From an uncultured Opitutia bacterium (GTDB taxonomy: Bacteria; Verrucomicrobiota; Verrucomicrobiia; Opitutales; Coraliomargaritaceae): a stretch of 64,000 nucleotides of DNA. The stretch lies in the NCBI GenBank assembly GCA_937136395.1, contig CAKZOI010000022.1:186001-250000 (forward strand). The letters are read 5' to 3'. Of this stretch, positions 28,705-33,591 are shown piece by piece. The notes below the pieces were generated by a model, which was given only the letters and a program-made list of their open reading frames with translations, had not been told where the DNA came from and searched no databases. Position 1 is the stretch's first letter. Each line of letters begins with the position of its first letter. The position numbers and the translations under genes are program-made.

Positions 28705-28799
28705 CGTAGCGTGCCGCTTTAGCAAACGAACCACCGTGCTTCCCATGCGGTCGTTTGCTAAAGTGGCACGCTACGTAAATCTCGCCGCAAACCACGCAC
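28705..28799 (-). repeat. Palindromic element behind tRNA-Leu, copy A
   Basis: Arms 28705-28732 and 28749-28775 are complementary over about 27 bases with one mismatch and one indel (core CTTTAGCAAACGA). On the minus strand a 31-nt stretch from 28799 to 28769, between the tRNA-Leu terminator and the palindrome, matches the corresponding stretch behind tRNA-Tyr at 26 of 31 positions. The element therefore has a fixed orientation relative to the tRNA gene. Confidence 0.75.
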
Positions 28800-28831
28800 A
28801 AAAAAAACCGAACGTTTCCGTCCGGTTTTTA
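28800..28831 (-). terminator. Terminator of tRNA-Leu
   Basis: On the minus strand a stem AACCGGACG / CGTTCGGTT (one wobble-type mismatch) with a GAAA loop is followed by eight T. It starts five bases after the encoded CCA. Confidence 0.8.
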
Positions 28832-28835
28832 AAAG

Positions 28836-28920
28836 TGGTGGTCGAAGGGGGACTTGAACCCCCACGCCTTTCGGCACCAGTCCCTTAAACTGGCGTGTCT
28901 GCCAATTCCACCATTCGACC
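28836..28920 (-). tRNA. tRNA-Leu (anticodon AAG), CCA encoded
   Basis: A complete cloverleaf of 85 nt: acceptor GGTCGAA / TTCGACC, D-arm GTG/CAC, anticodon stem CCAGT / ACTGG with loop TTAAGGG giving AAG at 34-36, a long class II variable arm (GCC-GAAA-GGC), T-arm GGGGG-TTCAAGT-CCCCC, and CCA in the gene. Alternative placement for anticodon TAA breaks the stem. An A at position 34 would need conversion to inosine to read more than CUU. GAG is the common bacterial form, so this is unusual. Confidence 0.9.
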
Positions 28921-29123
28921 AAATGTTACGCTTTCGCGTGGTGAAGTTGGAAGGTGATACGGCAGTTTTTTTTGAGATCAACACAAATATTCAAAAAAAA
29001 TTCATTTGTGCCCTGTAATGCAGTAGTCATACTTGTAAGTTCCATTGTAATTCCTTAGCACTTTACTCTCAAACTAACTTATAACCCACGTGGCCATTTC
29101 CGGCTGCGTTTATTTAAACGGAC

Positions 29124-31022
29124 ATGGCTGAAAAACCTGAAGAAAAATCCTCTAAGCAAGCGCTCGACTTAAACGCTCTATCTGGGCTCGATTTTGGGCC
29201 CAATTGGGCGGACGAAAAGAGTCAGAAGAATCGTCAGAAATCTTACGACAATTATAAGGGTGATTCCCGTGGTCGTGGTGGTAAACGTCAAGGTGGCGGA
29301 GGGGGCGGCAATCGAGATCGCCGTGCCGGAGGTCGCCCTCAGCGTCGTGAGGGTGGAGAAGGTCGCCCGCCGCGTCGCGATGATCGTCGTGGAGGTAATG
29401 AGCGTGGCAGTGATCGTCGTCATGCGCCAGCAGTCTTTCATCCTACGGTAAAGGTAGACCTATATCCACAGGATGAGGCGTTTGAGGCATTGGTGAAGCG
29501 TCTGCGTGCGACAGCTCGCACCTACCAGTTATTTGAAATTGCTCATTTGTTATTGGAAAAACCGGAACGCTATGTCGTTGTGGTCGCGAATAAGGCCAAA
29601 GCTGGCGAACAGCCTGAGCCACTTTATTTCTCCGTCCCAGGACATTTGCCCTTTGAGACTGAGGAGGCTGCGATCAGCCATGTGATAGCGAATCATTTGG
29701 ATCAGTTCTTTGATATTGAAGAAATCGAAGTCGAAGCGCCGAAAGGTAATTTTCAGATGGTGAATCGTTGCACGATTACCGGCGAATTGCTAGGGCCGCC
29801 TAATTATCACCGTTACCAAGAGTTTTTGCAGAACCACTATGCATCGCGCATTACCGGTATGTCCTTTGATCGTTTTCAGTCTAAGATCGAAACGGTAAAG
29901 GAGCAGGAGCAAATTGATGCATGGTCTGAGTCCATGAAGAAGGGGGCTCGTTATACGGTGAAAGATCGCCAAGACGGAGAGCCTGAGTCGTTTGAAAACA
30001 CTGAGGCTGTGCGCTACTTCTTGCTACAGCATCGTAAGGATAAAGTGGTCAGCTCTGGTGAGCATGTTCGCTTTGCCGGGCGTGATATTGCGAATCTTCC
30101 TAAGGGAGACATTCGTCGTTCGGTTGAAGCATATGTCGAGCAACAGTTGCACTTCCCGCTGGAAGCTGCGAATAACATTCGCGGTCGTTTGCGCCGCCAT
30201 AAGTTTACCGTCTATAAGAAGGGCTCGAAGGGGGTTTCATATGTCTGTGCAGTGAAACGTAAGTTCCGCGACTCAAAAACCGTATTCACTGATTCAATAC
30301 GTGACTTGATTGATTTTATCGAAAAGCACCCAAACACTTTGGCATCTAAACTTCCAAAGCTTTATATCGACATCGATACGGAAAAACAGAATCCCGTCGA
30401 ATTGAAGGTCTCTGAAGAGGAAGTTGCGGCTGCGGCTGAAGCGAAGAAGGCCGCAGAGGCGGCAGGCGAAGAACCTGCCACACCTGCAGAGGCGAGCGTT
30501 GCGCCCGATGCGGAGGCTTCTACCGAGGCAACGCCAAAGGTTGAATTGACTGCCGATGAGCAGGCGAAATTGAATCAATTGATGCTAGATCTGCGTTGGT
30601 TGATTACCGAAGGCTACGTTACCGAGTATGGCGATGGTAAGCTATTTGCCGCTCCACCGATGCCGGAGCCTAAGAAGAAAGAGCCTAAGCCTGCTGCAGA
30701 AACTCAGAAGGTTGAAGCTGTGAAAGCGGAGGCACCAAAAGAGGAGGTTGAAAAATCAGAACCCGAAGTGGAAGCTGAAGCGGCTCCTGTGGAGGAAGCA
30801 CCCAAAGCGGAAGTCGCTGAGGAGGCAAAGCCATCAGTCGAAGTTGAACAGCCTGCAGGAACGCCGGCTGAAGAAGCTCCCAAGCCTGTAAAGAAAGCGG
30901 CAAAGAAAGCTGCTAAAAAGAAGTCGGCGAAGAAAAAAGCGGCCAAGAAGAAAGCTAAGAAGATCGAAGATGTGGATCCATTTGATTTTGAATCATTGGC
31001 AGATCTTCCACCCGAAAATTAA
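29124..31022 (+). CDS. RGG-rich protein with conserved core and lysine/alanine histone-H1-like tail
   Basis: A 632-residue cytoplasmic protein. Residues about 40-100 are an RGG/RRD-type basic disordered region (RGRGGKRQGGGGGG, GGRPQRREGG), typical of RNA binding. Residues about 105-420 are a folded core (VKVDLYPQDEAFEALVKRLR, then LFEIAHLLLEKPERYVVVVA) that is not a family known to me. A Glu/Ala/Pro-rich linker follows, and the end is KKAAKKAAKKKSAKKKAAKK, like bacterial H1/HctB tails. Nucleic-acid binding is inferred from both ends; the core could be a ribosome- or RNA-associated domain. It has its own terminator at 31048-31078. Confidence 0.85.
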   Translation: MAEKPEEKSSKQALDLNALSGLDFGPNWADEKSQKNRQKSYDNYKGDSRGRGGKRQGGGGGGNRDRRAGGRPQRREGGEGRPPRRDDRRGGNERGSDRRHAPAVFHPTVKVDLYPQDEAFEALVKRLRATARTYQLFEIAHLLLEKPERYVVVVANKAKAGEQPEPLYFSVPGHLPFETEEAAISHVIANHLDQFFDIEEIEVEAPKGNFQMVNRCTITGELLGPPNYHRYQEFLQNHYASRITGMSFDRFQSKIETVKEQEQIDAWSESMKKGARYTVKDRQDGEPESFENTEAVRYFLLQHRKDKVVSSGEHVRFAGRDIANLPKGDIRRSVEAYVEQQLHFPLEAANNIRGRLRRHKFTVYKKGSKGVSYVCAVKRKFRDSKTVFTDSIRDLIDFIEKHPNTLASKLPKLYIDIDTEKQNPVELKVSEEEVAAAAEAKKAAEAAGEEPATPAEASVAPDAEASTEATPKVELTADEQAKLNQLMLDLRWLITEGYVTEYGDGKLFAAPPMPEPKKKEPKPAAETQKVEAVKAEAPKEEVEKSEPEVEAEAAPVEEAPKAEVAEEAKPSVEVEQPAGTPAEEAPKPVKKAAKKAAKKKSAKKKAAKKKAKKIEDVDPFDFESLADLPPEN

Positions 31023-33073: not shown

Positions 33074-33222
33074 GTGCTTGTGTAAAAAAAGACAAAGCCG
33101 CAAAGGTTCTTTTAAGCGACAAACAGCACATTGCAAAAGTCCGAGTTGAATGCACGAATGAAATTATTAAAAAAATACTTGGCATCGACCAAACTAGTCC
33201 TACAGTCCGCGTCTTCACTTTT

Positions 33223-33307
33223 GGTGAGATATGCAAGTGGCTAAAGCACGCAGACTGTAAATCTGTTCTCTTTGAGTTCGCTGGTTCGAATCCGGCTCTC
33301 ACCACCA
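33223..33307 (+). tRNA. tRNA-Tyr (anticodon GTA), CCA encoded
   Basis: A complete class II cloverleaf of 85 nt: acceptor GGTGAGA / TCTCACC, D-arm TGC/GCA, anticodon stem GCAGA / TCTGT with loop CTGTAAA, a long variable arm typical of bacterial Tyr, T-arm GCTGG-TTCGAAT-CCGGC, and encoded CCA. A terminator follows after four bases. Its 3' end is duplicated 156 bp downstream. Confidence 0.96.
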
Positions 33308-33496
33308 CTTTAAGGCCGTCCGCAAGGACGGCCTTTTTTTGTGGTGAGAGTCGGATGAAGAACCAGCGCTGGTTTGACGGAGCGAACGTAGTGAGCGGAG
33401 AAGGGACACTCGTAGAGTGGTCGCGAAGCGATGCCGAAGGCACCAATCCGGCTCTCACCACCACTTTAAGGCCGTCCGCAAGGACGGCCTTTTTTT
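33289..33496 (+). repeat. Direct repeat of tRNA-Tyr 3' end plus terminator around a hairpin segment
   Basis: Bases 33289-33341 (last 19 bases of the tRNA including CCA, plus terminator) recur at 33445-33497 almost exactly, 156 bp apart. The segment between (33343-33444) contains ACCAGCGCTGGT (33362-33373), a 39-base stretch at 33371-33409 shared with the tRNA-Arg region, CACTC-GTA-GAGTG (33407-33419), TCGC-GAA-GCGA (33421-33431) and TGCC-GAA-GGCA (33432-33442). The arrangement recalls the tyrT repeats of E. coli, each of which also carries the tRNA-Tyr 3' end. Confidence 0.85.
33312..33341 (+). terminator. Terminator of tRNA-Tyr, copy 1
   Basis: A perfect 10-bp stem AAGGCCGTCC / GGACGGCCTT with a stable GCAA loop and a seven-T tract. 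Confidence 0.92.
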
Positions 33497-33497
33497 G
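33468..33497 (+). terminator. Terminator, duplicated copy 2
   Basis: Identical to the terminator at 33312-33341 and carried on the duplicated tRNA-Tyr end. With both present, transcripts escaping the first would stop here. Confidence 0.85.
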
Positions 33498-33591
33498 TGC
33501 GCGGTTTACGTCAAGTTTTACGTAGCGTTCAGCTTTAGCAAACAACCTCCTGGGTAGCGCGGTGGTTCGTTTGCTAAAGCGGCATGCTACG
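33497..33591 (+). repeat. Palindromic element behind tRNA-Tyr, copy B
   Basis: Arms 33521-33547 and 33561-33591 are complementary with a few mismatches (core CTTTAGCAAAC). The right arm, read on the minus strand, matches the left arm of copy A at 28705 at 30 of 31 positions. The 31-base linker at 33497-33527 joins the terminator directly to the palindrome exactly as behind tRNA-Leu. Confidence 0.75.

Follow-up and report, generated by a model that had tools for sequence, protein, structure and literature searches.

What is the palindrome that stands at much the same place behind two tRNA genes of different identity? The question is raised by a 64,000-nucleotide stretch of an uncultured Opitutia bacterium (the window: contig C22, positions 186,001 to 250,000, of a 3.18 Mb genome, G000, in 106 contigs), in which one such palindrome follows tRNA-Leu(AAG) (28836..28920, minus strand) and another follows tRNA-Tyr(GTA) (33223..33307, plus strand), both genes being called by ARAGORN and Rfam. 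A sequence-only reading of this DNA had proposed a targeted element or a conserved 3' regulatory RNA. Our analysis indicates, with a probability of about 0.9, that both palindromes are REPINs (inverted doublets of repetitive extragenic palindromic sequences, REPs), ordinary small mobile hairpins spread by a REP-associated tyrosine transposase (RAYT).

Inverted repeats were found exactly where that reading had placed them, at 28705..28775 (minus strand) and 33521..33591 (plus strand) of the window, their arms measuring 25 nt with 96% complementarity at the former and 23 nt with 87% at the latter. The arm pattern CGTAGCGTGCCGCTTTAGC, allowing up to three mismatches, occurs four times in the window, all within the two palindromes, and was never met in 100 shuffles, so that the repeats lie far above chance. 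The alignment also bears out the match of 30 of 31 bases over one arm and the common orientation relative to the tRNA. An Rfam scan of the window at the gathering score returned three tRNA matches only and no family for the palindromes.

Repeat, genome and model searches agree on the anatomy of the element: two GTAG-tagged REPs of approximately 23-25 nt each, inverted around a variable loop of approximately 20-40 nt. The family sequence is GTAGCGTGCMGCTTYAGCAAACG and the REP arm reads C-GTAG-CGTGCCGCTTTAGCAAACG; in the Leu and the Tyr copy alike, each arm starts with C-GTAG, as do the arms found in relatives. Searched with the Leu copy, the genome yielded 37 matching pieces at E <= 10, and ten loci could be aligned as inverted-doublet hairpins. 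The covariance model R1 was built from these ten strong G000 loci, whose high scores thus arise by construction, and the further places that it detects in G000 are all weaker. The genome hence holds ten good loci and some weaker ones, extragenic position having been checked for the two window copies alone. Each REP can fold into a small stem-loop whose loop is TT or TC. Of 40 distinct arms, selected by GTAG and an inner GCTTYAGC, 28 have all three outer pairs, against a mean of 15.7 and a maximum of 23 in 5000 shuffles, and this covariation of the outer stem identifies the REP body as a stem-loop.

The transposase is encoded on the same contig. The RAYT gene lies at approximately 355.5-356.1 kb of C22, with a Y1_Tnp domain at C22:355809-356006, and is bordered on both sides by REPs (C22:355363-355503 and 356134-356238) that are two of the ten model loci. 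Its frame holds the HUH motif MPNHVHM ahead of one in-frame TGA (L059:3981-3983) and goes on behind it into CIDYIRKNPVKA; the position of the catalytic tyrosine is putative. Orthologues from two other genera, G024 (72% identity) and G011 (71%), are fully open and are flanked by nearly identical REPs of the GTAGCGTGCAGCTTTAGCAAACG type. Among RAYT loci at 44-57% identity, three of the four scanned (L116, L117 and L118) have diverged GTAG-tagged palindromes, while the scan of the fourth (L119, 44%) revealed no clear flanking palindrome pair; at 33% identity, L120 again has diverged GTAG-tagged palindromes of its own. The same REPs thus flank the RAYT in G000, and REPs and RAYT co-occur and change together across relatives. 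The nearest named carrier of the RAYT found is an Opitutia metagenome-assembled genome (DOCS01000194.1, 62%), in keeping with a most likely place of G000 in Opitutales or a neighbouring group of Verrucomicrobiota. Pfam PF01797 scored above its cut-off in all three RAYT proteins scanned, and the NCBIfam model REP_Tyr_transpos (NF047646, cut-off 80) gave 81.9 bits for an intact orthologue (L114) and 79.0 bits, just below the cut-off, for L115. Domain, HUH motif and REP_Tyr_transpos model together assign the gene to the RAYTs. A second Y1 gene of G000, at C39:88462 (L072, G000:C39:86001-91000), has in its flanks nine copies of another GTAG palindrome, GTAGAAGCGACACTCTTGTCGCTT, most of them spaced approximately 60 nt apart, and the genome therefore harbors at least two such systems.

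Several observations weigh against an ordinary REPIN. The DNA fold of a single arm is weak, with an energy no better than that of shuffles. Owing to the in-frame TGA, the G000 copy of the RAYT may be inactive, and its fragment before the stop reached 37.4 bits, under the REP_Tyr_transpos cut-off. A REP arm lies downstream of 4 of the 40 G000 tRNA genes (Leu-AAG, Tyr, Lys-TTT and, degenerate, Leu-TAA) and upstream of none, in a scan that covered approximately 600 nt on each side of every tRNA gene and less at contig ends. Finally, a rough post hoc binomial, which uses an assumed, unmeasured 3.3% of extragenic space just behind tRNA genes, gives P of approximately 0.004 for 3 of 10 REPINs in that position, and approximately 0.03, which is mildly unusual, when the Leu/Tyr pair is counted once (2 of 9).

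Does the element then target the region just behind tRNA terminators? Such targeting would account for the common orientation of the Leu and Tyr copies and their equal spacing from the terminator, and it would draw on the third REPIN, 197 nt behind tRNA-Lys(TTT), and on the degenerate arm 29 nt behind tRNA-Leu(TAA). Against it, the arms behind Lys and Leu-TAA lie at other distances, the Leu and Tyr copies represent a single copying event (see below), and the relatives provide no support. Tabulated against tRNA genes, most copies lie away from them, the very outcome that the sequence-only reading had named as its refutation: 7 of the 10 model REPINs of G000, with 3 of 10 near, and all 45 REPINs considered in relatives. 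These 45, from ten genomes, are part of the model matches (the sample omits those of G031, 24 in number, and of G030, G036, G052 and G056), and none has a tRNA gene within its flanks of up to 1 kb, shorter near contig ends. The weak G000 matches at C39:91120, C21:206377, C14:30829 and C21:152003 were covered from the tRNA side only. Conversely, no REP arm was found within 600 nt downstream of 20 tRNA genes of G001, a congener, or of 30 tRNA genes of G010, a member of the same family, after leaving out tRNA entries with less than 200 nt downstream (ten in G001 and one in G010). We therefore reject tRNA-targeted insertion, which the absence of tRNA genes beside the 45 REPINs of relatives makes highly improbable. 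Judged by the relatives, tRNA genes are not what the element homes on, and its location behind Leu and Tyr is happenstance.

The other proposal, a conserved 3' regulatory RNA of tRNA genes such as a second terminator or a stabilising hairpin, finds some appeal in the very stable RNA hairpins predicted for the two palindromes (-49.6 and -37.6 kcal/mol), both located 24 nt past a terminator. Conservation is precisely what the orthologous sites lack. The order tRNA-Leu, 632-aa protein, ClC channel gene, tRNA-Tyr is kept in both congeners, G001 and G002, and ClC adjoins tRNA-Tyr in 14 of 14 relatives examined. A REP arm is absent from the tRNA-Tyr locus in all 14 relatives (with just 78 nt behind the tRNA in one of them, L218) and from the tRNA-Leu locus in the two congeners (one with just 178 nt downstream). 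Either the insertion is therefore young compared with the genus, or the others have lost it. Moreover, a transposase gene has this same hairpin on its flanks, and at tRNA-Leu the hairpin lies beyond a rho-independent terminator (28800..28830, minus strand) that is recognizable from sequence and RNA fold and whose stem is identical in G001 and G002. With the orthologous sites empty, a conserved 3' regulatory RNA was rejected and is left with barely any probability. Since both predicted hairpins lie past intrinsic terminators, they are unlikely to act in tRNA expression.

If the tRNA genes did not attract the REPINs, why do two copies share their surroundings? The 24-nt linkers between terminator and REPIN (28776..28799, minus strand, and 33497..33520, plus strand) agree at 19 of 24 positions. 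An agreement of 26 of 31 had been reported; the figure is right, but 7 of these 31 bases belong to the palindrome end. The REPIN loops are also alike (none of 2000 shuffles matched either the linker or the loop similarity), and beyond the REPIN a tail of approximately 13 nt (28692..28704, minus strand, and 33592..33604, plus strand) is weakly alike (9 of 13). The position is common to both copies when counted from the terminator and unequal when counted from the tRNA gene, 60 nt for tRNA-Leu versus 213 nt for tRNA-Tyr, because the Tyr 3' end and its terminator are duplicated (33289-33343 equals 33445-33499; the first 3 bases of the Tyr linker also belong to this 55-nt repeat). The terminator stems differ between the two sites, that of Leu being the one found in the congeners.

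Because linker, loop and tail are homologous, the alignments show the Leu and Tyr copies to be a paralogous pair from one copying event, and two independent insertions at equal spacing were rejected on the homology of linker and loop. The sequence-only reading holds for the single block that both tRNA genes carry downstream and for its being a mobile element; its targeted and regulatory interpretations do not hold. The block was probably copied by recombination or template switching rather than by the RAYT, since the flanks travelled too and movement by a RAYT alone is not expected to carry them; this route is inferred. One might instead regard linker, REPIN and tail as a larger mobile unit moved whole by the RAYT, which would explain why the 24-nt linker and the 13-nt tail are shared together with the REPIN. 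This is improbable: the linker accompanies no other REPIN in G000, where a genome search for the linker block found it nowhere else, and it has no GTAG-tagged end.

The duplicated Tyr terminator leads to a second kind of repeat. The last 19 nt of tRNA-Tyr plus its terminator occur twice (33289..33343 and 33445..33499, plus strand, repeat family D1; 55 of 55 identical, i.e. 100%), the first copy being also recovered by a scan for copies of a gene's own 3' tail, and are separated by a unit of approximately 100 nt. The Rfam model of RtT RNA (RF00391) aligns over its full length with an RtT-like unit at 33334..33463 (plus strand), which ends in the second tRNA-Tyr 3' end, at 29.1 bits, and with a unit behind tRNA-Pro at 33.3 bits, the best match in G000 and its relatives; both scores are below the gathering score of 45, and membership in RtT is thus not established. 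In E. coli, the tyrT repeats include the 3' end of the tRNA and form a tandem array, and the consensus of the RtT model ends in the tRNA-like CCACCA. Weak RtT matches numbered 21 in 12 of 57 genomes, and among 14 control genomes only E. coli gave a match. In one relative, four consecutive weak matches approximately 140-150 nt apart form a tandem array (G036:C15:3776-4330).

Defined by at most 4 mismatches of 19, own-tail copies follow 7 of the 40 G000 tRNA genes (Tyr, Asp, Pro-TGG, Arg-TCT, two Glu and Thr-CGT) and precede none. The Thr-CGT case sits at a contig end, and of the two G000 entries for this tRNA one has 17 nt downstream, too short for the scan, and the other 161 nt. At both of these contig ends (G000:C22:398440-399276, L077, and G000:C13:1-693, L090) the tRNA 3' end forms part of a tandem repeat of approximately 105 nt, and it was probably such an array at which the assembly broke. 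Own-tail copies also follow 3 of 20 tRNA genes in G001, counting genes with at least 200 nt downstream, and 4 of 30 in G010, where one case is a tandem duplication of the tRNA gene that is also the source of 2 upstream copies. Across the order, tRNA genes of many identities are followed by similar repeats. At tRNA-Leu(AAG) of G001 (L210) and G002 (L211), an RtT-like unit with a second body type and a duplicated 3' end and terminator occupies the position of the G000 REPIN.

Two tests, limited to units with an own-tail copy, disagree on whether the inner strand of these units pairs specifically with their own tRNA end. The full-tail duplex test gave no signal, the own tail ranking first in 4 of 30 units, while a narrower substring test over 29 units (the single unit that contains a stretch of N being omitted) gave an own sum of 172 against a permutation maximum of 156 (0 of 5000), a weak result given that the units are related. 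A broader proposal would be that tRNA 3' ends in this order seed the repeated copying of their last 19 nt and terminator behind the gene, giving RtT-like units that differ with the tRNA identity, and that the same process, not the RAYT, passed the REPIN-linker block between tRNA-Leu and tRNA-Tyr. We consider it doubtful; were it true, self-repeating tRNA tails would make up a wide class, with the E. coli tyrT RtT as a single example.

An ordinary REPIN spread by a RAYT suggests the following mechanism. By analogy with the known family, the RAYT, a single-strand Y1/HUH transposase, would recognise the GTAG-tagged hairpin as single-stranded DNA, cut next to GTAG and copy or paste the REPIN into other extragenic single strands. 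A block of approximately 108 nt (24-nt linker, 71-nt REPIN and tail of approximately 13 nt) passed once between the two tRNA 3' spacers, probably from the poly-T/GTG that both sites have after the terminators. The tRNA itself would need no role, tRNA 3' spacers past the terminator offering a tolerant landing ground, and the inserted hairpins would presumably lack a function.

With this analysis, a suggestive tRNA-associated element becomes an ordinary REPIN with an identified RAYT, and a REP family that probably belongs to Opitutales is added. A REP family whose sequence changes with its transposase across genera constitutes material for work on REP-RAYT specificity. The RtT-like repeats that follow many tRNA genes would be of greater consequence, since comparison could then test where the long-known tyrT repeat comes from and what it does. 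Our searches found no literature that treats REPINs following tRNA genes as a class, and none on RtT-like repeats behind many tRNA genes among the top-ranked entries, subscription journals lying mostly outside the search.

How do these repeats compare with known systems? The units behind tRNA genes resemble RtT RNA (RF00391), the E. coli tyrT repeats, in matching its covariance model over the full length, in repeating the tRNA 3' end and in having an inner strand that pairs with it in the model. They differ from it by scores of 29-33 bits, below the gathering score, and by their occurrence behind many tRNA identities. Published accounts of RtT describe a tandem GA motif (PMC7657543) and, in the rtT RNA of Salmonella, a variable repeat of 175 bp (PMC2658671). 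The palindromes themselves share with the REPINs and RAYTs of Bertels and Rainey (2011, PMC3116915) a dispersed inverted REP doublet of approximately 71 nt that folds as a hairpin, and a RAYT flanked by the same REP; the differences lie in the approximately ten good copies, another REP sequence and a RAYT with an in-frame stop. In the E. coli REP/TnpA-REP system with its bulged hairpin (Corneloup et al. 2021, PMC8266576), GTAG likewise precedes an imperfect palindrome whose stem contains unpaired bases, whereas the REP sequence is unrelated and the RAYT described here is known from its sequence alone. A further likeness in description is offered by the superfamily of GTAG-tagged REPs, which, according to Di Nocera et al. 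(2013, PMC3733652), extends to Opitutus terrae, a member of the Verrucomicrobia rich in such repeats: GTAG at one end, a short TY loop, dimers and the REPtron layout are all shared, the GTAGCGTGCMGCTTYAGCAAACG family being likened to these repeats by description and not by consensus sequences. Because GTAG-REPs are already known from Opitutus terrae, the REPIN behind tRNA-Leu and tRNA-Tyr represents a new member of an existing class.

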